Program-made: the position numbers and the translations under genes
From: a virus
Strand: one strand, 5' to 3'
Length of the DNA stretch: 63,846 nt
Virus record (IMG/VR): IMGVR_UViG_3300036766_002130
Span: 1-63,846 of that record
Notes under the pieces: generated by a model
What the model saw: the letters and a program-made list of their open reading frames with translations, nothing else
Told to the model about the DNA's origin: nothing
The model's database searches: none
Part shown: in pieces, positions 8,689-55,084 of the stretch
Layout: every line of letters starts with the position of its first letter
Position numbering within the stretch: position 1 is the first letter of the stretch

Positions 8689-9798
8689 TTAGAAGAAAGA
8701 CTTACCACTTTTATATTTAGAAGGCTGGTGAATACTTTCACACCCCAGGAGCTGTTCATAGTAATAGATATTAGTTTTCATTCTTTCCAATGCATCGGTT
8801 TTTAGCTTTTCTGGATCAACACCAGCTTCAACAAAGTACTGTTCTATCCTTTCAACTACTTCCTTAGGAAATGCAAGTGTATAGTGGGGTTTTTTCGAAG
8901 ATTTAACCATCGAAATAATAGACACTGGAACTACAAGAGGGGAGTGGGCGTAGTCAAACTTCTCTTTTGCAGGATCGTAGTTAGGGACCATTACTTCCCC
9001 GTATACAGCGTGTTTTAACCAGGTGGTTGAATCCGTAGAATACCACGGGAAGTGCTGCATTAAACTGATTGATGTTACAGCAAAACCATGAACTTTTATT
9101 CCAGGGTTGGTATGAGAAATATATTCAAACGCTCTATTCCCTAATGACTGAACAAACTGCTGAAGAGTAATTCCTCCAGCAACTCCCCCAATTCCTATAT
9201 AGTCATAGTTGTTAACGTAGTGTTCTAACCATTTAAAATCTTCCCCATAATGAAAAACTGGTATTGGTCTAAGTCCATTACTCTCCATGTACTGCTGATT
9301 TTCAAAGGACTCCTCAGCATTGTATATAATATCTAGATTCACATACCCTAACAATTGATTTTTATACTTATGAATGAACTCAATATACTCATCCAAGTAC
9401 TTTCGAACATCTGGCTTCTTATTAAAAGACCAATCTGCAAAGAACTGAACTGCTCCACCCTTTTTAGCAGCATAAGAAATCCTTTGATTTATTGTAAGCC
9501 GATCTTCAAACTCTTCAGATGTAAATGTAATTTTGTCATTCTCAACTTTTTTCTCAGTTTCAACAGTATTTCCTTTGTTGATAAGGCCTACCTGAGCATT
9601 CAGCAAAGAATGAGCACCTGAATCTAGAAAAATCTTTATGTCAGGGTTTGCATCAAGAATTTTTGTTAGTTCTTGTCTTTTCCAAAAAGTTTCCAGTGCG
9701 GTGATCTTGCCCTCTTTAAGCTTCCCCATAACAAACTCATCCCTTGAAGTATAACCATTGCTAAAAAGGCCAGCAAGATGGATAAACTGTACAGACAT
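8689..9798 (-). CDS. dpdA: DpdA-like DNA-guanine transglycosylase
   Basis: A 369-residue TGT-superfamily enzyme of the phage DpdA type, which swaps guanine in DNA for a 7-deazaguanine base. Visible signatures are IFLDSGAHS with D59, GYVNLDIIYN with D156, PVFHYGEDFKWLEHY (181-194) and YIGIGGVAGG (200-209), in the order seen in TIM-barrel TGT/DpdA proteins. The tRNA-TGT zinc-site cysteines are not obvious. The lysine-rich C-terminus may contact DNA. It lies beside queC, with queF and queE a few kb upstream, as in phages that make preQ0 or preQ1 and insert it in their DNA. Confidence 0.85.
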   Translation of the reverse strand: MSVQFIHLAGLFSNGYTSRDEFVMGKLKEGKITALETFWKRQELTKILDANPDIKIFLDSGAHSLLNAQVGLINKGNTVETEKKVENDKITFTSEEFEDRLTINQRISYAAKKGGAVQFFADWSFNKKPDVRKYLDEYIEFIHKYKNQLLGYVNLDIIYNAEESFENQQYMESNGLRPIPVFHYGEDFKWLEHYVNNYDYIGIGGVAGGITLQQFVQSLGNRAFEYISHTNPGIKVHGFAVTSISLMQHFPWYSTDSTTWLKHAVYGEVMVPNYDPAKEKFDYAHSPLVVPVSIISMVKSSKKPHYTLAFPKEVVERIEQYFVEAGVDPEKLKTDALERMKTNIYYYEQLLGCESIHQPSKYKSGKSFF

Positions 9799-9889: not shown

Positions 9890-10020
9890 TTAGAATATTG
9901 CATTTCCTGGCTTTCCCAACTCCAACCACCAACATCTTACTTGTGTGCCTCTATTCACTTTAAGTGCTTCAGCCCACTCTTCATCAGATCAAATTTTACT
10001 GGATCTTTAGGACTTGGCAT
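9890..10020 (-). pseudogene. frameshifted small gene after queC
   Basis: A short reading frame starts at an ATG overlapping the queC stop (MPSPKDPVKFDL...) and is interrupted. A one-base shift restores a coherent sequence (DEEWAEALKVNRGTQV, then CWWLELGKPGNAIF) to a TAA. The two parts look like one protein of about 43 residues with a single-base deletion. It is either a real mutation or a sequencing error. Confidence 0.45.
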
Positions 10021-10711
10021 TATTATATTTTTTACATCCTGCCCAATCAACCTCAATTTCGTACTCAACTGGATCAATTATCTTATTCAGCTTGAAAGCC
10101 TCTATCCTCTCTACATCTGTGCCACACAAACCGCAGTGCTTCTCCCCTCCTTTATAACAACTCCAGGAGAGCTCCAAAGGCGCACCGATTTCCACCCCAT
10201 ACCTAACAATATCGTTCTTACCCCAATCAACGAAAGGTGAATGAATAATAATCTCTCCATACCCTCCTAATCTAATTCCTGCCGCAAAGGCCTTGATATA
10301 CTCCTTTTGACAATCTGGGTAGATTTCATGATCCCCAGCATGGTTAGCAATAGCAACATACTTTGCTCCAATACTCTCCGCGAATCCAGCAGCAATAGAA
10401 AGCATAATACTATTCCTATAAGGAACAACGGTTCTCCTCATAATTGGGTCTTCGTAATGTCCCTCCGGAATTGTACCACCAGATTGAAGAAGATTGGACT
10501 TGAATAACTCATTTATGAAAGGAAGATTCACTTCAACAAGTTTCACATCTAGTATCTTGCAAACTTTCCTTGCAGCTCCTCTTTCTTTGTCATTGTGTTT
10601 TGAGCCATAATTGAAGTTCAAGGCAACGATCTCATCAAACTCCTTCTTACATTTTGTTAGGAGGACTGTGGAGTCGAGCCCGCCACTGTAGATGATTACT
10701 GCTTTATTCAT
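10007..10711 (-). CDS. queC: QueC, 7-cyano-7-deazaguanine (preQ0) synthase
   Basis: A 234-residue ATP-dependent enzyme that turns 7-carboxy-7-deazaguanine into preQ0. The PP-loop is SGGLDS (9-14), RRTVVPYRN (92-100) is the conserved substrate segment, and the C-terminal metal site lies in SCYKGGEKHCGLCGTD. The family normally has four cysteines; here C185, C193 and C196 are present and the fourth position is Asp199. It is next to dpdA and probably supplies a DNA-modification pathway, though preQ0 could also enter tRNA queuosine. Confidence 0.92.
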   Translation of the reverse strand: MNKAVIIYSGGLDSTVLLTKCKKEFDEIVALNFNYGSKHNDKERGAARKVCKILDVKLVEVNLPFINELFKSNLLQSGGTIPEGHYEDPIMRRTVVPYRNSIMLSIAAGFAESIGAKYVAIANHAGDHEIYPDCQKEYIKAFAAGIRLGGYGEIIIHSPFVDWGKNDIVRYGVEIGAPLELSWSCYKGGEKHCGLCGTDVERIEAFKLNKIIDPVEYEIEVDWAGCKKYNNAKS

Positions 10712-11241: not shown

Positions 11242-11613
11242 TCACAATGTCCTTTCTATCTGCTTCACAACATCTAACCAATTTCCAGTATACCTTATTG
11301 CCTTATCATCAATATAGAACTCTGCTACTGGTTTATCCATACTTTCACTCGTAATAATTTCATCATATGGTAACTGGTTCCTTTTCATAAACTCTTGGAT
11401 GAGTATAAAATGACAAAGTCTCTCTTTTCTGCTACCCCAGTATGTTGCAGTTCGGCAGGAGTGTATCTTAATCACATACCCGAGCTCCTTCATCTTCAAG
11501 AGTGCTTCTCGGACGTTTGGTTCAGGAGAACCTTCATTTGGAAACTCGTCTCGGCATAAGGTTCCATCAAAATCAATTACCACCACTTTAGGTATATCTC
11601 TTTGTGAACCCAT
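11242..11613 (-). CDS. HAD-superfamily hydrolase
   Basis: A 123-residue small HAD-like phosphatase. Motif I is VVIDFDGTLC (residues 11-20), motif II lies in IKIHSCRTA, and the C-terminal FYIDDKAI gives the acidic motif IV. There is no cap domain. Its ATG overlaps the queF stop (TAATG), so the two genes are coupled. Phage proteins of this size act on nucleotides or sugars; linkage with queF suggests a possible role in 7-deazaguanine metabolism, but the substrate is unknown. Confidence 0.75.
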   Translation of the reverse strand: MGSQRDIPKVVVIDFDGTLCRDEFPNEGSPEPNVREALLKMKELGYVIKIHSCRTATYWGSRKERLCHFILIQEFMKRNQLPYDEIITSESMDKPVAEFYIDDKAIRYTGNWLDVVKQIERTL

Positions 11614-12062
11614 TACAAACTCCTCTCTTTACTTTCCCTCTTATCTCTCCACACCTTAACTGTAATAGGTATTCCTCCTCTGGGTGCCATAGTTAATTCC
11701 ACCTTAAGATATTTTGGGTCGCAGGCTTTCACCCAGTCATCTGCAATTTGGTTTGATAGAGTTTCGATGAATGCTCCATAGCTTCGATAACTATGGAAAT
11801 AGAACTTTGCAGATTTAGATTCAATACATTTTTCATCCGGAGTATAACTGATCTTCAAGGTATAGAAATCCGGCATACTTGTCAATGGACACAAAGCAGT
11901 TAGTTCATTAGTAGAAATCTCTACTGTAAAATCAATCCCCTTCTTAGGGTTGTCAAAGGTCTTAAGTATTCGGCAATCCGGTTTGCTGAACTGATGCCAG
12001 GATATTCCTTTCCCTGGAAGTAAAGCTTTATCATCATTAAGAAGATGTTCTTCGGTATCCAT
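11613..12062 (-). CDS. queF: QueF, NADPH-dependent preQ0 reductase
   Basis: A 149-residue unimodular T-fold nitrile reductase that converts preQ0 to preQ1. The catalytic pair is in TALCPLTSMPDF: Cys58 (thioimide) and Asp65, with the expected seven-residue spacing. The QueF signature for NADPH binding is ESKSAKFY (81-88), which QueF-like amidinotransferases lack. PRGG (127-130) is typical. The usual FHE is FIE here (Glu100 kept, His replaced). With dpdA nearby, this predicts preQ1 rather than preQ0 in DNA. Confidence 0.88.
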   Translation of the reverse strand: MDTEEHLLNDDKALLPGKGISWHQFSKPDCRILKTFDNPKKGIDFTVEISTNELTALCPLTSMPDFYTLKISYTPDEKCIESKSAKFYFHSYRSYGAFIETLSNQIADDWVKACDPKYLKVELTMAPRGGIPITVKVWRDKRESKERSL

Positions 12063-14143: not shown

Positions 14144-14263
14144 TTACTCCTCCTCCTCCGAGCAGAAAATTTCACCACATTCCTCACAAATGTGAGAATC
14201 GTTGTCAACTTCATCCTCTTGAACATTTCCACAATATGGATATTCAACTTCTTTCAGTTCCAT
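14144..14263 (-). CDS. 39-residue zinc-knuckle protein
   Basis: A short acidic protein with YPYCG and CEECG, a minimal zinc ribbon. Its ATG overlaps the QueE stop (TAATG), so it is probably co-translated with queE. Confidence 0.6.
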   Translation of the reverse strand: MELKEVEYPYCGNVQEDEVDNDSHICEECGEIFCSEEEE

Positions 14264-15042
14264 TATCTTTCCTCCTTTGCACCTGGCCACAAGAGTTTGT
14301 GCAACTGGAGCGAAAACTGAGCAGGAATCTTATCTCTAATCATCATCTCAACGAGCTGACGTGGCCAAGACATATTTAATTCTGGAGTCAAATTTAACTT
14401 TGTTCCGGTAGCCCCCCAATAGTTACGTTCAACAAGTTCCATCATTGGGCTAAAGACCATCTTTGCTATCCAATTTGGGTTTTTCTCTATCAATTCACAA
14501 GCTCTCTTGTAATCCTTCTCATCTGAAATAACAAATTTGATTACATCAATATCTCGAAGCTTTTCAAAAAGATTCAAATTCATACAATGTTCAACCCCCG
14601 AACTTGGAAGCTTATAATCAACCACAAAACGAAACATGAAATGGTCTAGTCTGGTATGAGCAGGGAGTTTCACCCCTAAGAATTTTTCTTCTTCATAGAA
14701 CATATCTGATATATCTATTGAACCATTCGTTTCGATTGTAACAAGATATCTTTTTTCTATTAGTTTATATACAAGTTTTTTTAGACCAATTCTCTGGAAA
14801 GCAGGTTCACCCCCGGTGACTGTAACCTTTGGAAAGTGAACTTGCTTCATAATTTCATCTATAGTCATCAAGTTAGCAGGTTCAGATTCTTGGGCATACC
14901 TAGTATCGCAATAGGAACACCCGGGATGAAAGTTACATCCTTTCAAACGGATGAAAGTGCAAAGTTGACCTGCTCCATCAAAGCCGTTGGCTTCCCCGTC
15001 GATGGAGTCGAAAACGGATTGGATGTTAAGTTTGTTATTCAT
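14263..15042 (-). CDS. queE: QueE, 7-carboxy-7-deazaguanine synthase
   Basis: A 259-residue radical SAM enzyme that rearranges 6-carboxytetrahydropterin to 7-carboxy-7-deazaguanine. Near the N-terminus it has SIDGEANGFDGAGQLCTFIR, and the cluster cysteines are C36, C42 and C45 in GCNFHPGCSYCDT. TVTGGEPAFQ (about 73-82) binds SAM, and VTIETNGS follows. It supplies QueC. No QueD homologue was recognised in the window. Confidence 0.92.
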   Translation of the reverse strand: MNNKLNIQSVFDSIDGEANGFDGAGQLCTFIRLKGCNFHPGCSYCDTRYAQESEPANLMTIDEIMKQVHFPKVTVTGGEPAFQRIGLKKLVYKLIEKRYLVTIETNGSIDISDMFYEEEKFLGVKLPAHTRLDHFMFRFVVDYKLPSSGVEHCMNLNLFEKLRDIDVIKFVISDEKDYKRACELIEKNPNWIAKMVFSPMMELVERNYWGATGTKLNLTPELNMSWPRQLVEMMIRDKIPAQFSLQLHKLLWPGAKEER

Positions 15043-16043: not shown

Positions 16044-16868
16044 TTAGCCACGGATAATTCCAAAAATCTCTTTGCTCGCCTTTAGCAGGCTCTCAAGCCA
16101 ATCTATCGGCATAATACTGGCGGCGTCCGACTTGGCTTTATCCGGCTGAGTATGGACTTCAATAAAAAGCCCGTTCGCCCCGGCGGCTACTGCCGCCTTT
16201 GCCAGTATCGGGGCCATTTCACGTCGACCTGCGCTGGCGTAACCTAAGCCGCCCGGCTGCTGCGTGCTGTGGGTGGCGTCAAAGACCACTGGATAGCCAA
16301 GTTTCTTCATAACCTCGATAGCCGTCATATCGTTGACCAGCCGGTTATAGCCAAAGAAAGTGCCCCGTTCGGTAAGTATAATCTTCTCGTTGTCGCAGGC
16401 ACGAATCTTTTCCACCACGTTCTTCATCTCATCGGGCGAGAGAAACTGGCCCTTTTTGACGTTCACGGGCTTGCCCGTTCGCGCGCAGGCACAAAGAAGG
16501 TCGGTCTGCCTGCACAAAAAAGCCGGCACCTGCAGACAGTCAACAACTTCCCCGGCAAGGCAAGCTTGCGCCGGCTCGTGCACATCGGTCATAACGGGCA
16601 AACTTGTCTTCTGGCGAACTGCTGCCAGAATCTCCAGACCTTTCTCCAGCCCGGGCCCGCGAAAACTGCGCAGGCTGGAGCGATTGGCCTTATCGAAACT
16701 CGCCTTAAAAATCACGCCTACGCCGGTCCTGCAGCCAATATCCGCAAGTCCGCGGGCAATATCCAGACAGCAGGTTTTGCTCTCGATAACGCAGGGCCCA
16801 GCCATGACAAATAAGGGTGCTTCTAAACCAATTTGAACGTTGCCAATCTTGAAATCGCCTCTATTCAT
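16044..16868 (-). CDS. kdsA: KdsA, KDO-8-phosphate synthase
   Basis: A full-length 274-residue enzyme that joins phosphoenolpyruvate and arabinose-5-phosphate to make KDO-8-P, the first committed step to the KDO of LPS. Signatures: FVMAGPCVIES, KASFDKANRSS, LPVMTDVHEP, LCRQTDLL, NVKKGQFLSP and VFDATHSTQQPGG. The ATG at 16868 overlaps the upstream stop (ATGAATAG). Base composition is much more GC-rich than all neighbours, a sharp sign of recent acquisition from a bacterium. It could remodel the host surface or feed the glycosyltransferase block at 46-56 kb. Confidence 0.93.
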   Translation of the reverse strand: MNRGDFKIGNVQIGLEAPLFVMAGPCVIESKTCCLDIARGLADIGCRTGVGVIFKASFDKANRSSLRSFRGPGLEKGLEILAAVRQKTSLPVMTDVHEPAQACLAGEVVDCLQVPAFLCRQTDLLCACARTGKPVNVKKGQFLSPDEMKNVVEKIRACDNEKIILTERGTFFGYNRLVNDMTAIEVMKKLGYPVVFDATHSTQQPGGLGYASAGRREMAPILAKAAVAAGANGLFIEVHTQPDKAKSDAASIMPIDWLESLLKASKEIFGIIRG

Positions 16869-17175
16869 ACCTATCCCAGAGCTCTGAGTGAGAATTATCA
16901 TCCAAACCACTTATTGAGCCATTCTCCTGCTTCTTCTTATCTTCGTATGGGGCAGCAATTTGCCTGTACAACTCCATCTTGGCACATTCAAGTATTCCAA
17001 TTACCTCATTTAGGTGTAAGTAGGAAACTCCTATCCTTTGCAAATAGTTATGCAGAAGCATAGTTATGGTAAAGTTAAGTTCCCCAGCATTGTTTGGCCC
17101 ACCACTCGGGAGCAATGCTAGCATAGTTTGACAAGCTTCGATTCTCGCACGATCTTCTCTTTTAATGTAAGGCAT
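16861..17175 (-). CDS. DUF6899-like phage protein
   Basis: A 104-residue protein starting MPYIKREDR, an N-terminus common to a family of small phage proteins of unknown function, with a helical body containing ELNFTITMLLHNYL. GAGGA precedes the ATG. Its stop overlaps the kdsA start. Confidence 0.65.
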   Translation of the reverse strand: MPYIKREDRARIEACQTMLALLPSGGPNNAGELNFTITMLLHNYLQRIGVSYLHLNEVIGILECAKMELYRQIAAPYEDKKKQENGSISGLDDNSHSELWDRYE

Positions 17176-22242: not shown

Positions 22243-23286
22243 TTATTGTTTGATTAAGGATAAAAACTCAGATCGCACCTCATCCTCTGAAAAACTCCCT
22301 TCTATCGCACTCGTAACAAGCTCCGAGGAGTTTGTCTTCACTCCTCGAATCTTCATACACATATGCTCCCCTTTCAACAAAACAAACACCCCTCGGGGTT
22401 TCAACATACTGGAAAGTGAATCCTTTACTTTACTGGTAATATTTTCTTGCAAGTCTGGGACAGAACAAAATAGCTCTACCAATCTCTGAGGTTTGGATGC
22501 TCCAAGAACAAATCCATTAGGAATAATCCCAATATAATACTTGTATAGCACAGGCAACAAATGATGTGGACACATCCCTATAGTCTCTCCTTTATAAATA
22601 ATCATCTCATCATTTTGGGAAGGAAAAACTGTAGATAGGATGTCCTTTACTTCTGCTCCAAAGTTTAGAAACAAACCTGAGCAGAGCTCCATATACATTC
22701 TAGATACTCTTTGGGGGGTTTCCTTGAAATTAGGATCATCTAAAGGAATCTTCATTGAATGCAGGAGGGCATGAATTGCTCGCTTAATCATGTTCATACC
22801 TGCAAATTTTTGTTCTTCTCTTCTAATCCTGTTATGAAGCTTTCCATGGCAACTTTTACATAACAAAATATAGTTGGATAAGTCAGAAGAGTAGTAGTCA
22901 TAGGATAAGTGATGGGAACACAACTGACCAGCACAATCACACTTCTTCCCACACCTCTCACAAACCAACCCCCTCTCATCTACCAACTTCTTTTTGATAG
23001 TTCTATCATTTTTTTGGTAAGTTATTACAAGAGTTTTGCTCCCCCTTCTTTTTATTTGCTTTGCCCTCTTCTTTCCATAAATCTTTTCATATGTTTTACC
23101 TCTAGTATTTTGATTCTTCAACTTCTTGGTTTGCTCTGTCTCAATAGGAGCGTCTGGAAACTTCCCCATATACTCTTTCACGGTTATTCCATGAAACTTT
23201 CCTAGATGAGTATTAGTAATCTCTTTAAAACGTTTTTGACACAATCTACAAACCACAAAATCAACTTCTTCTTTACCTTCCATCAT
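22243..23286 (-). CDS. folE: HNH nuclease-GTP cyclohydrolase I (FolE) fusion
   Basis: A 347-residue two-part protein. Residues 10-50 are a zinc finger (CRLCQKRF...HLGKFHGIT) typical of phage HNH proteins, and 108-152 are an HNH domain (CERCGKK, CSHHLSYDYY, CKSCHGKLHN). Residues 164-347 are GTP cyclohydrolase I, with zinc/active-site motifs MCPHHLLPV (C239, H242) and GEHMCMKIRGV (H308, C310). FolE makes dihydroneopterin triphosphate, the first step to preQ0. The frame is unbroken; internal Met164/166 could restart the FolE part but lack a spaced ribosome site. Confidence 0.85.
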   Translation of the reverse strand: MMEGKEEVDFVVCRLCQKRFKEITNTHLGKFHGITVKEYMGKFPDAPIETEQTKKLKNQNTRGKTYEKIYGKKRAKQIKRRGSKTLVITYQKNDRTIKKKLVDERGLVCERCGKKCDCAGQLCSHHLSYDYYSSDLSNYILLCKSCHGKLHNRIRREEQKFAGMNMIKRAIHALLHSMKIPLDDPNFKETPQRVSRMYMELCSGLFLNFGAEVKDILSTVFPSQNDEMIIYKGETIGMCPHHLLPVLYKYYIGIIPNGFVLGASKPQRLVELFCSVPDLQENITSKVKDSLSSMLKPRGVFVLLKGEHMCMKIRGVKTNSSELVTSAIEGSFSEDEVRSEFLSLIKQ

Positions 23287-23365
23287 AGAACACTTCCCCT
23301 TTCAAAAGTAAACAATATCAGTCTTCATCTTTAACTAACACAAAACAAGCCTATCCTAATTGTAA

Positions 23366-24871
23366 TTATACCTCTACCTCACGTGAACTCTTGTGGAAAT
23401 CCTTGATGTAAGCCATTGTTTCTTGTACCAAGTTAAATCGCTCGGATCTCTTCTCAATAACTCTTTCCTCAATCGAATTTTCCATCACCAAATCAACAAC
23501 CAGAGATTTCTTTGTTTGTCCCTTCCTGTGCACTCTCCCCACACATTGTTTCCGCATCTTAGGTGAGGATAATGGGGTGAAGAATACAACCATGTTAGCT
23601 ATAAATGCGTCAAATCCCTCACTCGCACAAGTACATTGTGATAACAAAACTTTAGTATTACCATCTTCAGAGAATCGCGTGATTTCAGCTTCTCTATCCA
23701 AACTGCTCTGCCCCCCAAAAGCCGAACAGAAAGAAATATTCTGCCTTCTAAGAGCTTCTGATATAATGTTTCTCTCCTCAGTATACCAGTAAAAAACAAT
23801 CACCTTTGAACCTGTATCTTCGAGCAAATCAAGAAGTGCCTCAACTTTTGGATTCTTTTTCAATCTATATACTTCATTATCTTCTCCATAGTAGAAAAAT
23901 CCACTCGGGAGTTCTCTTAACACATGTGCTTTCACTTTTATCTTCTTATCAAGTAGAATCTCAGTTTCGGGAAGCTTTAGTAATTTATTCTCTATAATAC
24001 CCTTTTGAAGTTTAAGAAATTGCTCCGAAGGATGAATATACCTGACTATCTCCTGAATAGGAGGTAGCTCAAAACACTCCTCTCTGGAAAAACTTAGGGT
24101 AGTATCGGAGATCCTATTTAGTATTTTCTCCTCACAACCGGGTTTAAGGTTCCACTCAACCCACTTTCTTCCCCACTTGCTCCCGCAAACCTTCCTATCA
24201 AAATACTGATACCGATAGTTGAAGAAGTTAGTACCTAATGACTTCCCAAGATCGATAACCCGAAAAATATTGAACAATTCAAGGTAGCTCTTGTCTACCG
24301 GAGTCCCTGTTAGGCCAATAACATATTTTGCTCTCTTTGATAGTTCAAGACAAATTTTGGATTGTAAGGCGTCGTAGTTCTTGCACTTGTGAACTTCATC
24401 CAGGATAATACAATCAAATTCGTGCACAAAGGAGTCCGGAATTATTTTCCAACCCTCCCCTTTGTATAACTTAGCATAGATCGTCTTTAGGCCCTCATAG
24501 GTAATTATAAATATGTCTTTTTTTCTCTTTATAGCTCTTTTTCTATCCCTTCCACTATCCTTTCCACTACCTGTAAGAAAGGAGTAAGAAAAGTCTGTAT
24601 AGTTTTTGAGGTCTCTTCTCCAAGATCCGAATGCAGAAGAAGGGCAAACCACTAGCGTTTTCCTACAGTCCCAGAGTTTAAGCGTAGCTAGTGCTGCCAA
24701 AGTCTTTCCAACACCAACATCATGAAAGAATGCGACTCTGAATTTCTCAGAAGCAAAAGCCAATGAGATGAGTTGATGCCACATGAGAGGTATCTTGATA
24801 TCTATCTTAGCATCTTCAAATGCAAAATTCAACTCATCTTTAGTAAGTGACTTGTAATCAAGGTTTAGCAC
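23366..24871 (-). CDS. SNF2-type DEAD/DEAH helicase
   Basis: A 501-residue superfamily 2 ATPase of the SWI2/SNF2 kind. Motif I FHDVGVGKTLAALA (about 49-62), motif II IILDEVHKCKN, motif III GLTGTPV, motif V near SEGFDAFIA and motif VI QCVGRVHRKGQTKK. Such phage proteins remodel nucleoprotein or help replication or recombination; the exact role is unknown. Confidence 0.85.
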   Translation of the reverse strand: MLNLDYKSLTKDELNFAFEDAKIDIKIPLMWHQLISLAFASEKFRVAFFHDVGVGKTLAALATLKLWDCRKTLVVCPSSAFGSWRRDLKNYTDFSYSFLTGSGKDSGRDRKRAIKRKKDIFIITYEGLKTIYAKLYKGEGWKIIPDSFVHEFDCIILDEVHKCKNYDALQSKICLELSKRAKYVIGLTGTPVDKSYLELFNIFRVIDLGKSLGTNFFNYRYQYFDRKVCGSKWGRKWVEWNLKPGCEEKILNRISDTTLSFSREECFELPPIQEIVRYIHPSEQFLKLQKGIIENKLLKLPETEILLDKKIKVKAHVLRELPSGFFYYGEDNEVYRLKKNPKVEALLDLLEDTGSKVIVFYWYTEERNIISEALRRQNISFCSAFGGQSSLDREAEITRFSEDGNTKVLLSQCTCASEGFDAFIANMVVFFTPLSSPKMRKQCVGRVHRKGQTKKSLVVDLVMENSIEERVIEKRSERFNLVQETMAYIKDFHKSSREVEV

Positions 24872-31813: not shown

Positions 31814-33030
31814 AGCCTCCTATGGCTAAAGCTCATAGGCTTCCAACAGGTTATCCTGTTCTTCTTTTTCCTGCTTCAGCGAGGACCACTGCTCCAAAGG
31901 AGCTGTAACCTTATCCTCTCCACAGGCGTTGATTTGGCTGGCCCCCAGCCTATGTATGTTTATAGCTGCGTTAAGATCTCTATCTAAGCTAAATCCACAA
32001 ACCTTACAATTAAATACTCTATCACTTAAAGTTAGCTCCTCGTTCTTCCAACCACATCTACTGCAAGTCTTACTACTTGGATAGAATTTATCTATCTTCA
32101 AGAAGTACTTGCTGTTCCAAAGCGCTTTATACTCTAACTGTCTTACAAATTCGGACCAAGCTACATCAGCAACAGATTTTGCAAGGTGATGATTCCTCAT
32201 CATTCCAGATATATTTAGATCTTCAACCACAACACCATCATACTTGGCTATCATATGAGATGTTAGTTTGTGAAGAAAATCTAATCTTACATCCTTTATC
32301 TTCTGATGTATCCTATGGACCTTCTTTCTTTGCTTATTCCTGTTAACACTTCCTTTCTGTTTTCTACTCAATCTTCTTTGTTCTCTAACCAACTTTTCCT
32401 CATACCTCTTCATGTGTTTTGGATTAATAATTATGGTCCCGTCTGATAAAGTAGCAAACGCATTTAACCCTAAATCTACTCCAACAAGATTATTTGCCTT
32501 TTTCTCTTTCTCCCGAATCTCAAATTCACAAGTTACTGAACAATACCATCTATTTCCATCTTGTAAAACCGTAATATGTTTTGGTTTACCTTGAAGAGAT
32601 CGATGTTTTATCCATCTTACTTCTCCTATTTTTGGAATATGAACAAAGCTTTTCTTCAACTTCCATCCTTGAGGACAAGTAAAGGAATCATTGTCTTTCT
32701 TCTTCTTAAACTTTGGAAAACCTCTGTTACTCCTAAAGCTATCTCTTAATGCTCTATCCAATTGTCTTGCTACAGTTTGTAAAGATTGAGAAAAAGATAG
32801 ATTTAGAAAATCAAATTCTTTCTTCAACTTAGGTATGGACATTGACATTTCGTAGAAAAATTTGAATTTCTTTGTTTCCTTATAATAGTCAGTATTGTTC
32901 TTGAGCAAGTAATTCCAGAGAAAACGAGCATTACCTCCCTGCTGAAGCAGCATAACTCTCTGCTCCTCTGTTGGATATATTCTAAATTTAAACCCTTTTT
33001 GAATCTTCATCTTACCTCAACTTCTGTATC
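31814..33030 (-). mobile_element. IS605-type element carrying tnpB, no tnpA
   Basis: The right end has a hairpin at 31819-31839 (CCTATG...CATAGG), overlapping the tnpB stop as in IS200/IS605 elements where the omega RNA arises. The left end lies just upstream of tnpB around 33020-33060. There is no tnpA (Y1 transposase), so it cannot move alone. Confidence 0.75.
31826..33010 (-). CDS. tnpB: TnpB, IS605 OrfB-type RNA-guided nuclease
   Basis: A 394-residue OrfB protein. The RuvC catalytic acids are in VGVDLGLNAFA (about 187-197), VVEDLNISGM and DRDLNAAINIH. The zinc ribbon is CSRCGWKN ... CKVCGFSL. The N-terminal wedge-like region starts with FKFRIYPTEEQ. All three acids are present, so it may be active; its guide would come from the sequence beyond the right end. 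The last codons lie in the terminal hairpin. Confidence 0.9.
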   Translation of the reverse strand: MKIQKGFKFRIYPTEEQRVMLLQQGGNARFLWNYLLKNNTDYYKETKKFKFFYEMSMSIPKLKKEFDFLNLSFSQSLQTVARQLDRALRDSFRSNRGFPKFKKKKDNDSFTCPQGWKLKKSFVHIPKIGEVRWIKHRSLQGKPKHITVLQDGNRWYCSVTCEFEIREKEKKANNLVGVDLGLNAFATLSDGTIIINPKHMKRYEEKLVREQRRLSRKQKGSVNRNKQRKKVHRIHQKIKDVRLDFLHKLTSHMIAKYDGVVVEDLNISGMMRNHHLAKSVADVAWSEFVRQLEYKALWNSKYFLKIDKFYPSSKTCSRCGWKNEELTLSDRVFNCKVCGFSLDRDLNAAINIHRLGASQINACGEDKVTAPLEQWSSLKQEKEEQDNLLEAYEL

Positions 33031-45952: not shown

Positions 45953-46038
45953 ACTTTCTCCTTACAGAAATGGATACTTAAGTTCTCTCACTTACAGATT
46001 TGCCTTCCTAATGGAGTAAACTTCCTTCCTTACTATAA

Positions 46039-46644
46039 TTATACTTTTCTCACTTGTACTCTCTTGAAATTCCTTTTATTTCGAAACTCTCTAGAAGCCT
46101 GGTAATGTTTTATCACAGGATCTTTAACACTACTCATATAATCAAAGATCACGCACAAATTCTCTGGCAACAGGTGATATTTGTGCTGCTTTAGAACTAT
46201 AGCTAATGCACACTGGTCCCACAACTTTGAATCTTTTGAACATTCAGAGATCCACTCTTTAATAATTATACGAACTTCTTCATTGTTTTTAAGAAAAATT
46301 GTACCACTAAGTAACTCAGGGGGATGATTTTTTCTTCTGTACTTTGAGTGATCCAAAATATGAACTGCAATGTTTACATCTGGATCGATATCAAGTTTAT
46401 CGAAATAACCTGGATATTGAAGAAACTCCGCATCAGCATCGACATACACAATAGACTTGGGAAAGTGCTTTTCTAACATTTGTTGAAGAAAAACAGGCTT
46501 AAACTGTGTGTTTTTATACCAATCACCTAAGTCATTAACCAGATGAATATCATTAGGAATATTGAACCTTTTCAAGGATTCAACAAGTCGATTAGCATGT
46601 TTTTGATAATCAGGAGTAAAATAAGAAATGATTAACCAGTTCAT
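46039..46644 (-). CDS. nucleotide-sugar transferase-like (GT8-type)
   Basis: A 201-residue protein with the DxD of a retaining GT-A fold: SIVYVDADAEFL. N-terminal LIISYFTPDYQKHANRL is the nucleotide-sugar strand. ATG at 46644 has GGAG upstream. It is the downstream end of the surface-sugar block. Confidence 0.6.
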   Translation of the reverse strand: MNWLIISYFTPDYQKHANRLVESLKRFNIPNDIHLVNDLGDWYKNTQFKPVFLQQMLEKHFPKSIVYVDADAEFLQYPGYFDKLDIDPDVNIAVHILDHSKYRRKNHPPELLSGTIFLKNNEEVRIIIKEWISECSKDSKLWDQCALAIVLKQHKYHLLPENLCVIFDYMSSVKDPVIKHYQASREFRNKRNFKRVQVRKV

Positions 46645-46645
46645 C

Positions 46646-46753
46646 TCATCTCCTTCTTCTGCCAAAAATGAAAGCTACACAACACAATAAGACCAATATA
46701 AAAATTGTAGACCATTCCGGAGTATACCAAGAAACTAAATCAAAGCTATACAT
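46646..46753 (-). CDS. small membrane peptide, 35 aa
   Basis: One hydrophobic helix (STIFILVLLCCVAFIFG) with a basic C-terminus. Its ATG overlaps the upstream stop (ATGTATAG). It could anchor a neighbour; function unknown. Confidence 0.5.
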   Translation of the reverse strand: MYSFDLVSWYTPEWSTIFILVLLCCVAFIFGRRRR

Positions 46754-47633
46754 TTGGTGTAATCCTTTCAAAGAAATTAACATAGTTTTGAGCCACTAAT
46801 CGAATGTCATGATTATCAACAGCAAATTTTCTTGCTTCTTCTCGCATACTTCTGTATAGGCTTGGGTTCTCAACCATTTGCAAAATAGCTTTCTTGATTG
46901 ATTCTCCTGCTCTTTCTACAAAAATACACTGTTTGTAATTCTCAAGGGCGTGTCCGTGGTATCCTATTTTGGTGCAAATTGCAGGAACTCCACAAGATAG
47001 TGCTTCAGCAATAACATTTGAACATCCTTCATTCTTGCTTGGAAGCACCAAACAGTCTATTTTATGATAGAAATCAGGAACCATTCGATTGGCAGCGATT
47101 TGATGTTTACCACGAATAGCATTTCTCTGCTCTATCCTGTCTCCCAAAGAATTTACTGCTTCTTGATATGGTGGCCACCCCTTGTAATCGGCATTAGCGC
47201 CCTCGATATTTGCTGCAAATCCAACAGTAAACTTCTCAGTATTTCTCCATGGTAGAGGATAATACGAATCTAAGTTTACACCATTGGGTTGCAAAATTAC
47301 ATTACTGTTCTTAGTGCAGGCGACATCAAACAAAACTTTGTTGGTGCAAATTACACCAGCTACTTTGGAAAGTATCTCTAGTCTTGAAGGAGTTAGCGCA
47401 CGAACACTATCAAGAATAGAAACCAAGTTGTCAAATCTTTTGTATAAATGTAAACACGTTGGATTCATAGCCACCACAATATCAACCCGCCGGCCCAAGT
47501 TCTCCAAAACTTCTTGGAATTTCTTCTTGTATCCGTGATAATGTTTGCACTGAGGCATATTTGCAGCCAGCATTTTGGCATTGATATCATAAGCCCAATC
47601 AGGAACGTCACAAATCCATAGTATACTTTTCAT
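46746..47633 (-). CDS. glycosyltransferase, GT4-like
   Basis: A 295-residue GT-B fold enzyme: SKVAGVICTNKVLF, QPNGVNLDSYYP and the C-terminal PSKNEGCSNVIAEALSCGVP with the donor-binding EGCxNVIxE. Typical of retaining family 4 enzymes that add hexoses. Confidence 0.8.
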   Translation of the reverse strand: MKSILWICDVPDWAYDINAKMLAANMPQCKHYHGYKKKFQEVLENLGRRVDIVVAMNPTCLHLYKRFDNLVSILDSVRALTPSRLEILSKVAGVICTNKVLFDVACTKNSNVILQPNGVNLDSYYPLPWRNTEKFTVGFAANIEGANADYKGWPPYQEAVNSLGDRIEQRNAIRGKHQIAANRMVPDFYHKIDCLVLPSKNEGCSNVIAEALSCGVPAICTKIGYHGHALENYKQCIFVERAGESIKKAILQMVENPSLYRSMREEARKFAVDNHDIRLVAQNYVNFFERITPNV

Positions 47634-48340
47634 GGTATTTCCTTAATAATTGGACTGTTTACAGCACGTTGATTTGCCAACGCTATGATGTCAATTGGAG
47701 TTCTTAGTAACCGCATTACAGAATCTTTTCTATACGTACGGTAATAGAGAATTTCCTGAACGACTCTTCCTTCAAAAAATTGTTGTACTCTTCTGGTATA
47801 GTTGTATGTTTCACCAGTGAGCGCTAGAGGATCAAAGTAACCGACCTTCTCCACAGCAGCCCTAGAGTAAATCATTGAAGGATCAATCATACATAATTTC
47901 TTTGGGTAGATATTTTTTAAATCATCATCTGTACACCGGCAATGAATATCTACATATTTTCTTATTGCTATCCCGTGTTCATCAAATGATTGGCCCCAAC
48001 AACCAACAAACCCGATATTTTGTTCAAACTTTAACAGCTGCTTACTAATTCTCTCTGGATGACTTTCATCATCAGCGTCCATTCTTGCTATAAACTCACC
48101 TTTGGCCAAATCCAAACATTGATTCAACCGAATGGTAAGCCCTTTATTCTCATCTTCTCTAAAAGCTCTTATCCTTGGATCATTGTATGTTTTGATTCTA
48201 TCAAACACAGCCTCTGTAGAACCATCATCAATAATAATAAATTCTAAATCCTTTTCTGTTTGATTAAGAATACTCTGGATAGCTCTGTCCAAAAACCGGA
48301 TTCCGTTGAAAACCGGCATTATAACTGATACTTTAGGCAT
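47630..48340 (-). CDS. glycosyltransferase, GT2
   Basis: A 236-residue inverting GT-A enzyme: VSVIMPVFNG, QTEKDLEFIIIDDGS and the DxD-like FIARMDADDESHPER. It lacks membrane helices. It overlaps both neighbours, so the sugar genes are transcribed together. AGGAAG precedes the ATG. Confidence 0.85.
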   Translation of the reverse strand: MPKVSVIMPVFNGIRFLDRAIQSILNQTEKDLEFIIIDDGSTEAVFDRIKTYNDPRIRAFREDENKGLTIRLNQCLDLAKGEFIARMDADDESHPERISKQLLKFEQNIGFVGCWGQSFDEHGIAIRKYVDIHCRCTDDDLKNIYPKKLCMIDPSMIYSRAAVEKVGYFDPLALTGETYNYTRRVQQFFEGRVVQEILYYRTYRKDSVMRLLRTPIDIIALANQRAVNSPIIKEIP

Positions 48341-48342
48341 AA

Positions 48343-48954
48343 TTACTTCCTCGCCCAAAACTCCCAAAGCCAATCAAAGCAAAAAACGGAAGTATGCGTC
48401 TTAGATAACCCATCTTGAATTGCTTGTCTTCGAGAGACACTTTCTTCGCCGTATTGATGAAATTGAATAGCTATATGTTCGAATTTATTTACCAATCCAC
48501 TTTCTATCATAGCTGGGAGTATTTCATACTCGCCACCCTCACAATTACACTGCAGCAAATCAATACCTTCTATATGATTCTCAGTTATAAAATCTACAAC
48601 GGATTTTATCTGGATGTTCCTATGTTTTCCTGGACAGAATATTCCGGTGGCATCCTCCTTAACACCCACTTTCTGAAGTCTAGTACTGCTACCTAAACCA
48701 AAAGGAAACATTGTAACCTTAGAATTATTGACAAATTCCTTCTTGCCATCCAAGTACCATTCCTCTATCGGTTCGAACGCAAAGATAAATGGGTTATATC
48801 TTTGCACTATTTCCCTCACCCAGCGGCCGTGCCAGTAACCAACTTCCCAGACTTTGCTTTTTTCATTCAAAAAGGGAAAAATCTCAATCTGGTGATCCCC
48901 ACCGGCTGCAAGCCACCTTTTGTATTCATCTGATTTTTTTACCTTTGCACTCAC
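48343..48954 (-). CDS. FkbM-type methyltransferase
   Basis: A 203-residue SAM-dependent enzyme: VWEVGYWHGRWVREIVQ, IFAFEPIEEW and IDLLQCNCEGGEYEILPAM, the FkbM signature order. GTG start with GGAAG upstream; an ATG at 48984 lies inside the neighbour. It probably methylates a sugar. Confidence 0.7.
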   Translation of the reverse strand: MSAKVKKSDEYKRWLAAGGDHQIEIFPFLNEKSKVWEVGYWHGRWVREIVQRYNPFIFAFEPIEEWYLDGKKEFVNNSKVTMFPFGLGSSTRLQKVGVKEDATGIFCPGKHRNIQIKSVVDFITENHIEGIDLLQCNCEGGEYEILPAMIESGLVNKFEHIAIQFHQYGEESVSRRQAIQDGLSKTHTSVFCFDWLWEFWARK

Positions 48955-48958
48955 GTTA

Positions 48959-49711
48959 CTACTTCCTAAAACAAAAATCTGCATTCGTATCTACAGTTGA
49001 AGCATGATTACCCTCAACAAATTCAACTATATTAAAACCTGTTTTTCCTCGTACAACTGGACTATACACCCTGTTTTTATTGAAAAAACCTGCCCAAAAA
49101 CTGAATGTAGAATTAGCCCTCAAGAGAACATCCGCGTTCACCATTAAGAAGAAATCAGGCAAAAATTGCAAATCTCTCTCCAATCTGGGGTCCTCAGTTT
49201 GTGTCTCTTCTGCTACCCATCTAATATTCCCTTTTGGTATATTAAATTTGTCACACGCCCGTAGGTAGGACTCTTTAGATATCTCGCAGTATTCATTTGA
49301 AAACTTACTAACGTAATCACCCTTGCGAAGATGAGCTACCACAGAAAAAGTGGCTTCTTTCGGAAAAAGGCTTACCCATTTATCTTGAAATTGAAGCCAA
49401 CTTCTTATTTTTGCTTCAGACAAAATGTCTATAAATTCTTTCCTTTGAAAGTATCCACACAAATCTATATTTATTGTCCCCCACTTTACACAATCCGTTT
49501 TTGTTGGTGGTAATTTTACAGATGGTTTTGGATGTTCTACATTCTTAAATATCTTCTGACCCACCCAGTTAGGTATTTCAAGAGTAGCACCATACTTTTC
49601 AGCGTAGGTTCTGGCAAATAAATATTGAAATATTTGATTGCCAAAACGTCCCATCTTACCAAGCCGGGCAACTTGTACTATCCCTTTAGGCACCTGGCTG
49701 GCCCCTAGCAT
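48959..49711 (-). CDS. GT11-type fucosyltransferase
   Basis: A 250-residue enzyme matching family 11: GRFGNQIFQYLFARTYAEKY near the N-terminus and VVAHLRKGDYVS (HxRRxDY-like). Likely an alpha-1,2-fucosyltransferase acting on a surface sugar, although the acceptor is unknown. Confidence 0.75.
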   Translation of the reverse strand: MLGASQVPKGIVQVARLGKMGRFGNQIFQYLFARTYAEKYGATLEIPNWVGQKIFKNVEHPKPSVKLPPTKTDCVKWGTINIDLCGYFQRKEFIDILSEAKIRSWLQFQDKWVSLFPKEATFSVVAHLRKGDYVSKFSNEYCEISKESYLRACDKFNIPKGNIRWVAEETQTEDPRLERDLQFLPDFFLMVNADVLLRANSTFSFWAGFFNKNRVYSPVVRGKTGFNIVEFVEGNHASTVDTNADFCFRK

Positions 49712-50363
49712 CTAAAGCCCAAATCTTGTAATTAGAAACATCATTATCTTTTATCTCAAAAAGTGGAAACAACTGCTTGGTCACAAAGAAAGCGTTAATT
49801 GCACAAACAGATATCAATTCGTAGCCTTTTCTCTTCGCCAATTTCGTTAAGGAAGCTAATGATGTTCCCACATACTTCTTACGTGGGAATGGGATGTGTT
49901 GAATAAACTCCTCACCATTTCTAAGTGTTGGGCTACACTCAACACAGACAATACTGGGGGTATACTCTACAAAAGCTTCCCAAATATAATAATCGGGGCC
50001 GTCAACATCAATCGAAAGAAAGTCAAAATCTTTTGGGCAAGGAGTATTTTTAAGAAGACTATCTAAGCTGTTAATTCCGTCTATCTCTACTTTAGAATTT
50101 AAACACATCACTGGAAAACCTTTATAGGTCGTCTTCAGTTCAGCAAACTTTCCAGCATCTGATTCAATCTCAACCCCATTCCAACCTCTGTTTACAATCA
50201 AATTAAAGGTGTTACTGTAGAGTTTGCCATCCCAAGCTCCAAATTCAACACACCATTTATTTTTAGAACCAATAATCTCAAAAATCTTCTCTATAACACC
50301 ATCCTCTCCGTGCTGGGAAGTAACGACTTTACGATATTCTGCTAGCCAATTCGGTAGATTCAT
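49686..50363 (-). CDS. methyltransferase-like protein
   Basis: A 225-residue protein with SQHGEDGVIEKIFE, WCVEFGAWDGKLYSNT and DFLSIDVDGPDYYIWEA, a Rossmann-type SAM methyltransferase pattern seen beside glycosyltransferases. The start is uncertain (ATG 50363 preferred over TTG 50384). Confidence 0.65.
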   Translation of the reverse strand: MNLPNWLAEYRKVVTSQHGEDGVIEKIFEIIGSKNKWCVEFGAWDGKLYSNTFNLIVNRGWNGVEIESDAGKFAELKTTYKGFPVMCLNSKVEIDGINSLDSLLKNTPCPKDFDFLSIDVDGPDYYIWEAFVEYTPSIVCVECSPTLRNGEEFIQHIPFPRKKYVGTSLASLTKLAKRKGYELISVCAINAFFVTKQLFPLFEIKDNDVSNYKIWALDARGQPGA

Positions 50364-50367
50364 TCTA

Positions 50368-50907
50368 CTATATCTCCGCAGCAATTATATCGTCTTTGAA
50401 TAATGGGCTGTCTACATAACTTATGTTGTACCCCGGATTTATTTCTTTGAGTTTGGCAATAACATCTGATTCCTTAATAACTGGCCAACTTCCAAAGTTA
50501 TCTGCAAATAATCGTCTGTCGTCTATAAGAAGCGTATGATTCCTAATTGGATGTTGCTTTATCTGCTCCAATTCTAAAAGCAACGGAAATGATTCTGTCA
50601 AAGGTTCAGGCCAACCCAAATCTTTATTGGAATGAGCATCTAGCCAGAAAATAGCGTGTTCAGATACGTCCTTAAGAATATTTTTAAGCTGCTCTGCACT
50701 ACTCCCAAGTACAATTTTAACATTACTATTTTCTCTGAATCTTCTACAACAACGATCATAATACAGCTTGGAAAATTCAATACTATAAATCTGCTGAAAC
50801 CCGGCTTTAATTGCGGTAACAATACCATCTCCCTTGTATGTGCCGGTCTCAACAAAGACGTTTATATCCTTCTTGAACTTTTCCAAAACCTGGAACGACA
50901 AAGGCAT
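50368..50907 (-). CDS. class I methyltransferase-like protein
   Basis: A 179-residue Rossmann protein: NVFVETGTYKGDGIVTAI, IYSIEFSKLYYDRC and AIFWLDAHSNKD, like enzymes that modify sugars. No donor can be assigned. Confidence 0.6.
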   Translation of the reverse strand: MPLSFQVLEKFKKDINVFVETGTYKGDGIVTAIKAGFQQIYSIEFSKLYYDRCCRRFRENSNVKIVLGSSAEQLKNILKDVSEHAIFWLDAHSNKDLGWPEPLTESFPLLLELEQIKQHPIRNHTLLIDDRRLFADNFGSWPVIKESDVIAKLKEINPGYNISYVDSPLFKDDIIAAEI

Positions 50908-50908
50908 T

Positions 50909-51070
50909 CTATCCTCCTTTTACAATATGAAGACGAAGTTTCTCCGTAAAACAGTACTTTTTCTTGTCCTTTAAAGCAAAAAATTCAGACAGCATTTTGT
51001 GTAAACAGTATGCTTGGGCATTACCCCCAACATTATTATGATACGGAGTTAGAAAATACATAGCTCTCAT
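50909..51070 (-). CDS. small hypothetical protein, 53 aa
   Basis: A short frame (MRAMYFLTPYHNNVGGNAQA) with no recognised family, located within the sugar block in the same direction. Confidence 0.5.
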   Translation of the reverse strand: MRAMYFLTPYHNNVGGNAQAYCLHKMLSEFFALKDKKKYCFTEKLRLHIVKGG

Positions 51071-51079
51071 ATAACTTTC

Positions 51080-51958
51080 CTAATGTTCAACAATCTTTCG
51101 GTAATACCATTCGCCAATTTTTTCAGGGCGGAGCTTCATCTCCCAAAGATCCACAATATTCTTTCGAATGCAGTTCATCCTCTTAGGATCTTCTAACAAT
51201 TCTATAGCTTTCGACCCAAATTGTTTGGGGTCGCTGCAAAAGACACAATGAACATTATCTTCAAAAATAACGTCGTTAGCAAATGGATAATCCTTTCCCA
51301 AAGGTTCTGTAATCATGATAATCCCTTGCTGAATAAACTCTGGGATCTTCCATCCAAGGTAGGCAGAGGCACTCCAAACAAAGCCCAATTTTGTATCCAG
51401 TAGCAATTTTTCGTATTCACTTTGTGGTGATTTATGTCCGTATCTTGTGTTGAACCCTCTCTCTTCCAAAAGTTTAGCCTGCTCAATGAGGGTTCGCCGA
51501 GCAACAGCCCATGGTTTATTAGAATTTGGGGGAGTACCTCTATTCCAGTATCGCATCAAAGCAACCACATCTATTGGCCTGGCTCGATTGAGCAAATCAG
51601 ATTTGTTAAAGGACCGATTCCGCCACCATCTGTAGAGACCACAAGGTATTATCCTCTTACTATACTCACCATATATAGAGTAATCAAAAAGGTTTGGACT
51701 GTAATGAAACTTAAAAACCCGCTTGTAATCTCTTTCCTGTAGATTTGGCCAGTCAAATTTGTTGAATTCAAAACCATCTGCGTGTGCTATGTAGGCAACA
51801 ATTTCCCCGTCTACAGAAATACTACAGACCGGAATAGTTGGGTCTACCCCCAAAGAAAATCCCAACTTCTTCTCAACTAATTTCATGGCATCAAAGATGG
51901 GACAAAGATACCCCTCATACGGGCCAAGATTCATTCGTATACTTCTGCTCATTGCCAT
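51080..51958 (-). CDS. glycosyltransferase-like, GT-B
   Basis: A 292-residue protein with a C-terminal GT-B donor domain (GWKIPEFIQQGIIMITEPLG, then AIELLEDPKRM). The N-terminal half is unusual. A sugar transferase is likely; family unassigned. Confidence 0.55.
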   Translation of the reverse strand: MAMSRSIRMNLGPYEGYLCPIFDAMKLVEKKLGFSLGVDPTIPVCSISVDGEIVAYIAHADGFEFNKFDWPNLQERDYKRVFKFHYSPNLFDYSIYGEYSKRIIPCGLYRWWRNRSFNKSDLLNRARPIDVVALMRYWNRGTPPNSNKPWAVARRTLIEQAKLLEERGFNTRYGHKSPQSEYEKLLLDTKLGFVWSASAYLGWKIPEFIQQGIIMITEPLGKDYPFANDVIFEDNVHCVFCSDPKQFGSKAIELLEDPKRMNCIRKNIVDLWEMKLRPEKIGEWYYRKIVEH

Positions 51959-51967
51959 CCCACTTTT

Positions 51968-52762
51968 TTATCCAAATCCGTAATACTCGGTGTTTAACCA
52001 GTCATCTGAAATGTTAATATACTCCAGCATTTTCTTGGCTACATCATCAATCCTTTGGCCCACCCTCTTATATTCCTCTCGGATTGATGTAACAATATCT
52101 GAGGCACCTTTCCAATGAATAGCATTAGGAAGTTCCCCATTATAGATGCATCTACGGCCCATCAGGCCCAGTTCAACAACAGTATTGGATAATCCATCGT
52201 GCTTTATGGGTCTCAGTCCTATAAAACACTGCTTATAAATGTTTTGCATTTCTGCAGGAGAATACTTTCCCCAAGCTGTGGGAAGGATTTCAATATCCTT
52301 AAGAGAAGCCAGAACCTCGTCTATAATACTTTGTCCATATCTCAAACACTTCTGTCCATAATTGTAGATGTAGATTTTGCTACCTAGTTCTGTGGGCTTA
52401 AATTGTTCCACAGGAACATGTGAGATTGGCAGAAAAATGTACGGAACCCCACATAATTTTAAATCTTGAGCTACAAAACTGGAAATGGCTATATGCTTTA
52501 CATTTTTTCTCTGAAAGAGTTCTGCAAAGCCTTTTCTTGCTTCAATATTCTGAAGGGCCTGTGCATCGCTACCACGCCAAACAAGAACCACTAAAGAATC
52601 TGGATCATGCGAAAGTATTTTAGCCAGATTTTTCTGGTTGTAGCAACCAAAGAAGATAACTGGTTCTTTTGTATTTGTGTATTCTACAAAGTTATATTTC
52701 TTGAAAATGCGGGCCTTAAAGGCTTTTATCGCATTACAAACGTAGCACTGCTCTATCCTCAC
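51968..52762 (-). CDS. glycosyltransferase-like, GT-B
   Basis: A 264-residue protein with GT-B donor-like C-terminus (IGLRPIKHDGLSNTVVELGL). Its role is inferred from the pattern and the surrounding sugar genes. Confidence 0.6.
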   Translation of the reverse strand: MRIEQCYVCNAIKAFKARIFKKYNFVEYTNTKEPVIFFGCYNQKNLAKILSHDPDSLVVLVWRGSDAQALQNIEARKGFAELFQRKNVKHIAISSFVAQDLKLCGVPYIFLPISHVPVEQFKPTELGSKIYIYNYGQKCLRYGQSIIDEVLASLKDIEILPTAWGKYSPAEMQNIYKQCFIGLRPIKHDGLSNTVVELGLMGRRCIYNGELPNAIHWKGASDIVTSIREEYKRVGQRIDDVAKKMLEYINISDDWLNTEYYGFG

Positions 52763-53451
52763 CTTTGACCTTTCATATATTCAAGTGTATCTACAAATGA
52801 CATTCCTTTTCTAACATCAGAGGGAAGTTGTTTATATCTTCTCTTTGCCACCCCAATTCTTTCAATATGGGATCTTACATAGTACAATACCTGGTCGAGA
52901 GTATAGGTTTTGTACTCCTTTGTCATTTTTAGATACCATGCTGCATCTGTTCCAAACCAGCTTGTATTCTCCGGAAATCTAATTTTTTTATCTACAGGAA
53001 AAAGTAATGAGCCAGTAACAAATTTAATTACTCTACCCTTATTATCTCTTCGTGGCTCTTCTCGATGGTTAATCTGCTTGCGTTCACTAAACCATACCCC
53101 TCCAGTCGCTATCATCTTTTTTTCTTTTTGAAGAGCTTTTAGTTGTAGTTCAAGTCTATAAATATTTGATACGTCATCACTACCCATCCAACAAGCATAC
53201 TCAGTTTTGCACGCATCAAGAAGCCTGTTCATAGTGTAGGGTACACCTTTATTCAATTTATTTCTAAGCAAGGATATTCTTGGGTCTTTCTTAGCATAGA
53301 CTTTAAGAGCTTTCCAAGTATTGTCTGTTGAACCGTCATCGCAAATAAGAAAGGTAAAATCCTTGTATGTTTGATCGAGAATACTCGCTATCGAAGATCG
53401 CATGAGAGTTTGCCTATTAAACGTCCCCATTAGAACACTTACTTTAGGCAT
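52759..53451 (-). CDS. glycosyltransferase, GT2
   Basis: A 230-residue GT-A enzyme: VSVLMGTFNRQTLMRSSIAS, FTFLICDDGSTDNTW and ACWMGSDDVSN with the catalytic DxD-like acids. Overlaps its upstream neighbour by four bases. Confidence 0.85.
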   Translation of the reverse strand: MPKVSVLMGTFNRQTLMRSSIASILDQTYKDFTFLICDDGSTDNTWKALKVYAKKDPRISLLRNKLNKGVPYTMNRLLDACKTEYACWMGSDDVSNIYRLELQLKALQKEKKMIATGGVWFSERKQINHREEPRRDNKGRVIKFVTGSLLFPVDKKIRFPENTSWFGTDAAWYLKMTKEYKTYTLDQVLYYVRSHIERIGVAKRRYKQLPSDVRKGMSFVDTLEYMKGQR

Positions 53452-53510
53452 TATTATAATTTCCTTCCATTCTAAAGTATAGTTGTTTACAAGTATTGTG
53501 AACAGGAAAG

Positions 53511-53531: not shown

Positions 53532-53535
53532 TAGC

Positions 53536-55067: not shown

Positions 55068-55084
55068 CTCTTCCTACCTCTTAC

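Follow-up and report, generated by a model that had tools for sequence, protein, structure and literature searches.

Introduction

Some homing nucleases have free-standing genes, and others reside in introns or inteins. Among described systems, MobE of phages T4 and Aeh1 comes close to the gene analysed here, as it is likewise an HNH nuclease with a homing-type DNA-binding part that is found beside or inside a phage gene of nucleotide metabolism. MobE, however, is encoded by an open reading frame of its own and in Aeh1 splits nrdA into two polypeptides (PMC2988022), whereas the nuclease considered below stands in frame with an unsplit enzyme. HNH inteins, such as those labelled from motifs in QueE and ThyX of two other viral records (loci L222 and L287), do share a frame with their host enzyme, with the QueE intein residing in the very pathway discussed here, but inteins are spliced out and the present protein is without a splicing domain.

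The enzyme in question is GTP cyclohydrolase I (FolE), one of the four enzymes that lead from GTP to preQ0. In a 2019 survey of phage 7-deazaguanine genes, an E. coli deletion is reported to be complemented by the folE gene of phage 9g (PMC6884629). This 9g FolE belongs to the same enzyme family and has the same gene context and likely product as ours but is an ordinary FolE that carries no nuclease. The main text of the same survey does not refer to HNH, homing or fusion, and a 2023 study of phage nucleases makes no mention of GTP cyclohydrolase (PMC10448857). Our own search of titles and the beginnings of abstracts, with partial coverage of the literature, also yielded no description of an HNH-FolE fusion, in line with a first-pass annotation of this DNA that knew of no described case. 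Here, we analyse such a fusion in the viral record IMGVR_UViG_3300036766_002130 of IMG/VR; the whole stretch studied, i.e. positions 1 to 63,846 of that record (63,846 nucleotides), is referred to as the window.

Results

Structure of the fused gene

The first-pass annotation had described a single 347-codon frame that joins a zinc finger and an HNH domain to a complete FolE. This frame is present on the minus strand, and its parts are as follows:

22243..23286, minus strand: HNH-FolE fusion, open reading frame of 347 amino acids including the ATG start, with the stop codon in the span (frame reading)
23158..23262, minus strand: ROS/MUCR-type C2H2 zinc finger, residues 9-43 (Pfam and profile match to Ros, 2jsp)
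23050..23103, minus strand: linker motif RGKTYEKIYGKKRAKQIK, residues 62-79 (RGKTYEKIYG), common to the free-standing endonucleases L268-L280
22828..22962, minus strand: HNH nuclease domain, residues 109-153, with two CxxC pairs, H125/H126, N138 and H151
22252..22788, minus strand: GTP cyclohydrolase I domain, Pfam residues 167-345, with C239, H241, H242, H308 and C310 retained

The FolE half is recognized by GTP_cyclohydroI (PF01227) with 148.1 bits (cut-off 27), over positions 1-178 of the 179 in the profile, and by the GTP cyclohydrolase family of PHROGs (8.3e-43). Its residues C239, H241, H242, H308 and C310 (C-x-H-H ... H-x-C), to which we assign zinc-binding and catalytic roles, are invariant across the window protein and 62 relatives, and the window protein has CPHH in place of CEHH. 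With the NCBIfam equivalog TIGR00063 it scores 143, below the cut-off of 181.6; it is a divergent member, and we therefore claim no equivalog name for it. At the N-terminal end, Pfam scores fall just below their cut-offs (HNH, PF01844, 19.3 bits versus 21.4; ROS_MUCR, 18.6 bits versus 25.4), and at least a dozen HNH endonuclease families of PHROGs match, the best with 1.2e-6. These calls are backed by the relatives, since HNH exceeds the Pfam cut-off in six of the nine other fusions described below and a profile built from six of the N-terminal halves finds matches in the solved structures of the Ros DNA-binding domain (2jsp, 2.3e-4) and of an HNH endonuclease (5h0m, 9.5e-4). H125/H126, N138 and H151 presumably are the catalytic residues of the HNH domain.

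AlphaFold2 models the whole fusion with a mean pLDDT of 90.4 and the N-terminal half alone with 89.8. In the model, the FolE half resembles FolE of T. thermophilus (1wm9_A; target TM-score 0.90, E 7.1e-20), and the HNH part is folded as strand-strand-helix, with top Foldseek matches that are weak (E 0.07-0.7) and include the HNH nucleases Cap5, Gme nickase and EndoVII. The open reading frame is a real fusion of a ROS/MUCR finger, a linker of the GKTYE type, an HNH domain and a complete FolE, and no second place resembling this protein was found elsewhere in the window record. Two familiar arrangements were considered and rejected: an intron, as there is no Rfam match, and an intein, as the protein lacks a splicing domain and its nuclease part, at the extreme N-terminus, has no preceding segment that could be rejoined.

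Occurrence in other viral records

HNH-FolE is no one-off chimera. Ten distinct HNH-FolE genes emerged from scans of IMG/VR, with near-copies counted once, i.e. that of the window and those of L148, L149, L150, L151, L152, L153, L162, L164 and L119. When viral contigs were searched with degenerate patterns that reach from the end of HNH into the FolE motifs, 36 and 24 stretches were retrieved; FolE was present in eight of the resulting loci and all eight carried the HNH extension, with two of them cut at the end of the locus. A profile scan, in which 80 of 204 relatives were kept, contained HNH-FolE in eight of the 80, and L119 makes a ninth fusion; two further candidates (L177 and L217) are cut by contig ends. 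L162 is counted as a fusion by its similarity to the N-terminal half of the window protein (2.9e-6) and by its motif, with neither Pfam nor PHROGs reporting HNH in it. Fingers vary within the set: six fusions have a ROS/MUCR finger, L149 and L153 a C2C2-like one, L150 both, and L162 and L119 none. CPHH is found in nine of the ten FolE halves, whereas most FolEs, including most of the phage FolEs examined, have CEHH. Unfused FolEs with CPHH are found in phage, Myxococcota and Pacearchaeota.

Outside this set, searches were negative or returned ordinary genes. The window fusion protein alone had no match when viral contigs were searched with it, and tblastn of INPHARED with the HNH half gave none at E 0.01. 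With full-length queries, no INPHARED record reached 80% coverage for the window protein (0 of 392), L148 (0 of 392) or L149 (0 of 393); five of 392 did so for L119, but two of these (S0112 and Youna2), as well as D527, have an ordinary folE. HNH-FolE was likewise absent from plasmids (0 of 241) and from bacterial and archaeal contigs (0 of 38), and a FolE-profile scan showed no HNH extension in 80 loci kept from 558 relatives. Lengthening the linker in a third pattern yielded 13 stretches, with FolE in three and HNH in none. The fusion, for which the first-pass annotation had suggested looking in other phages, is thus found in nine further distinct reading frames of IMG/VR and in none of the named phages and genomes tested.

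A separate observation concerns L160 (7128-7907) and L252, where two zinc knuckles precede FolE and there is no H-N-H; this same gene is present both in a viral contig and in one listed under a Thorarchaeota MAG. The knuckles of L160 were rejected as an HNH remnant, with five of 1956 reported shuffles scoring as high and only CxRCG aligning.

Relatives of the N-terminal module

Scanning with the six N-terminal halves yielded 35 loci, among which only HNH-FolE proteins matched across the whole half; such a scan may miss free-standing finger-HNH genes, because its patterns derive from fusions. Among the loci with frames read, L268, L269, L271, L273, L275, L277 and L280 encode free-standing endonucleases that combine this finger and the GKTYE motif with a different nuclease domain; L268 and L275 match endonuclease PHROGs. 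We take the free-standing endonuclease families with this finger and motif to be mobile. In L286, the finger lies inside an intein that interrupts a radical SAM protein, and L287 has an HNH intein in ThyX (both labelled from motifs).

Genomic context

The fused gene shares the window with homologues of further 7-deazaguanine genes:

8689..9798, minus strand: DpdA-like transglycosylase (phrog_887, 9.9e-49)
10007..10711, minus strand: QueC (PF06508, 1.1e-58)
11613..12062, minus strand: QueF-like protein (PF14489, 4.2e-24)
14263..15042, minus strand: QueE-like radical SAM protein (phrog_2076, 2.3e-29)

FolE, QueE, QueC and DpdA are thus present, and QueD was not found in the window record, which may be incomplete. 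The other nine fusion records contain QueD in eight, DpdA in six and QueC in seven cases, and each holds at least two of these three. A single folE above the cut-off was found per record in all 11 records searched (window, the nine other fusions and L160). Since other 7-deazaguanine genes are present and the fused gene is the only folE, the FolE half very probably works in the fusion records and, judging from this context and its residues, is very likely to be active in DNA modification.

Other genes were seen in passing. A DAHP synthase family gene similar to KDO-8-P synthase (16044-16910, minus strand) lies in a stretch of raised GC content (46% versus about 38%) and is possibly host-derived; a TnpB-like OrfB_IS605 gene (31826-33010, minus strand) had no TnpA noticed beside it; a large protein with a laminin-G-like and two Ig-like domains (60816-63098, minus strand) is probably located on the virion surface; and a run of genes similar to glycosyltransferases and methyltransferases, as judged by eye, extends over 46000-56000. 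In another record, the cysteines in the radical SAM motif of QueE are separated by what is likely an HNH intein (L222:7703-9274).

Phylogeny of fused and unfused FolE

In a careful FolE tree of 70 sequences, the ten fused ones require nine changes, four of which are forced by well-supported branches. L177 and L217 were left out because both run off contig ends; also omitted were the Myxococcota sequences, most sequences with CEHH and some long ones (L004, L033, L044, L080). No bootstrap tree, in a bootstrap that had not fully settled, held the fused sequences as one clade, and for the nine CPHH fusions a single clade was rejected by an AU test (p 0.000996). The fused L148 groups with the unfused L180 (68% identity) and L181. 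Judged by these trees, the fused FolEs form no single clade, and the fusion has been gained and/or lost repeatedly. The tree itself fits either, as loss of an old fusion would scatter the fused sequences too.

L148 is also linked to the window by the gene next to the fusion:

23366..24871, minus strand: helicase-like open reading frame directly upstream of HNH-FolE, 47% identical to the neighbour in L148

This gene, presumably a helicase by its sequence motifs, adjoins HNH-FolE in both the window and L148, and used as a query it found the L148 record only.

Probable remnants of replaced folE genes

FolE carries an extra N-terminal domain in yet another set of viral proteins (L009, L019, L021/L023, L029, L032, L045, L319), in which a phosphoribosyltransferase-like domain is fused to its N-terminus. 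The partner is a different one, and in some relatives this gene has apparently been replaced by HNH-FolE. Directly before HNH-FolE, L151 has a FolE N-terminal stub, EMLLKYIGEDPDWEGLLKTSNRVLKA, which covers PF01227 positions 3-43 (E 1e-6) and stops where the ribosome site of HNH-FolE lies. The stub belongs to the GEDPDxEGL type, from which L151's own FolE differs; scored with a profile of phosphoribosyltransferase-FolE fusions it reaches 29.9 bits, with none of 5000 shuffles as high (best 7.9). In L149, L150 and L152, the upstream phosphoribosyltransferase bears a tail of 41-52 amino acids in the place where the phosphoribosyltransferase-FolE fusions hold the N-terminus of FolE. Of 5000 shuffles each, none scored as high as the tail of L152, one as high as that of L149 and 53 as high as that of L150, which is a weak case; Pfam does not recognize the L152 tail. 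Tails resembling the FolE N-terminus are thus found on all three phosphoribosyltransferases before HNH-FolE and on none of ten before unfused folE, all ten of which are free-standing and end within about ten residues of their PWE motif, with the number of independent cases being below ten because L036/L042/L046 are alike and so are L157/L163/L166. No folE stub lies upstream of the fusion in the window, and among the other flanks only those of L151 and L152 rise above controls. L151 is the sole unequivocal stub. These remnants are best read as traces of HNH-FolE having replaced the FolE part of an older FolE or phosphoribosyltransferase-FolE gene in these relatives.

Discussion

Overall, a homing-type nuclease joined without splicing to a DNA-modification enzyme that looks functional recurs in viral genomes, with signs of folE replacement in relatives. 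This union is real and not an ordinary one; homing itself, together with cleavage, its target and the activities of both enzymes, is what we infer. The first-pass annotation had considered that a homing nuclease might have been captured at folE's 5' end, and we favour this origin in view of the module occurring in free-standing endonucleases, the finger in an intein, the nine recurrences and the stub of a replaced folE upstream of HNH-FolE in one relative. The annotation's second option, that the fusion has a specific role, may still apply. We regard it as reasonably probable that a homing-type HNH nuclease has become joined, unspliced, to a working FolE and that the joint gene replaces resident copies of folE. 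The C-terminal FolE would convert GTP to dihydroneopterin triphosphate, the first step to a 7-deazaguanine base, which the phage QueE, QueC, QueF and DpdA homologues would make and place in the phage DNA. Finger, linker and HNH domain would together make up an endonuclease module of the homing type, which stays in the protein unspliced and now forms the N-terminus of the enzyme. The HNH domain might nick or cut the folE region of a co-infecting phage without the cassette, and repair would then copy HNH-FolE over the cut folE, so that the nuclease would spread and at the same time provide a functional enzyme.

An unlikely alternative is that the nuclease is dead or dying and has been kept as a passive, zinc-bound extension of FolE with a DNA-binding or structural role. 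The HNH asparagine is indeed altered in three of the ten fusions (S in L151, D in L162 and L119; N is kept in the other seven), and L160, a candidate relation, has zinc knuckles only before its FolE. However, all ten retain the HH pair and the final H of HNH, and pN/pS in the HNH core is below 1 and indicates about the same constraint as in FolE (eight pairs, with synonymous sites near saturation).

This constraint, along with HNH and FolE identities that track each other among the fusions (rho 0.48), indicates that the two halves often move as one, with gains or losses of HNH in some lineages. Divergence in step and constraint on HNH would also be expected of a nuclease kept for another role, for instance one that is domesticated, no longer homes and cuts unmodified DNA of the host or of rival phages, with the FolE half feeding a protective modification of the phage's own DNA. 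That every fusion found sits in a record with modification genes would fit as well. Yet the module is the same as in free-standing endonucleases and an intein, close kin such as L180 manage without HNH, fusion status is patchy and cutting is only inferred, and such a change of role seems improbable to us.

Doubtful, too, is a scheme in which one gene serves as weapon and shield, i.e. HNH-FolE starts synthesis of a protective base and cuts DNA without that base, rival folE loci first, so that in competitors the resident folE gives way to the fused one. If true, HNH-FolE would be a self-mobilizing metabolic enzyme that does without intron or intein and for which modification is self-protection.

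It is very unlikely that two proteins arise from the one frame by a separate start of FolE. The relevant sites are as follows:

23295..23303, minus strand: Shine-Dalgarno-like GAAAGGGGA, 8 nt ahead of the fusion ATG (23286)
22789..22797, minus strand: Met164 and Met166, the sole candidate internal starts of FolE

Two ATGs do lie exactly where FolE begins, with a weak AGGT six bases ahead of Met166. Their anti-SD pairing of -3.1 (Met164) and -3.8 kcal/mol (Met166) is nevertheless ordinary, being equalled by 47% and 30%, respectively, of 125 internal ATGs, whereas the 5' start pairs at -7.8 kcal/mol, compared with a median of -7.3 over 29 hand-picked gene starts of the window. Among the nine other fusions, seven pair at -5.8 kcal/mol or better at the 5' start and none has a Met at the position of Met164/166; nearby alternative starts are mostly badly spaced, with one well-spaced TTG (L119, codon 136) located within the first helix of FolE. 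An internal start at these methionines, which the annotation had named as what would speak against a single polypeptide, was therefore rejected. That an assembly or indel artefact fused two genes is hardly credible, with nine more fused frames in other records showing the same junction, even if the window is a single metagenomic contig of which no close copy was found.

Returning to the reading that we favour, in which HNH-FolE is a homing-type nuclease joined to a working enzyme, an in-frame and unspliced union of this kind across diverged phages would represent a further way for homing nucleases to persist, as a nuclease should be harder to lose if the enzyme fused to it is needed. HNH-FolE would at the same time provide a concrete route for the exchange of DNA-modification pathways among phages, and the fused and unfused folE genes of close kin offer a testable pair.
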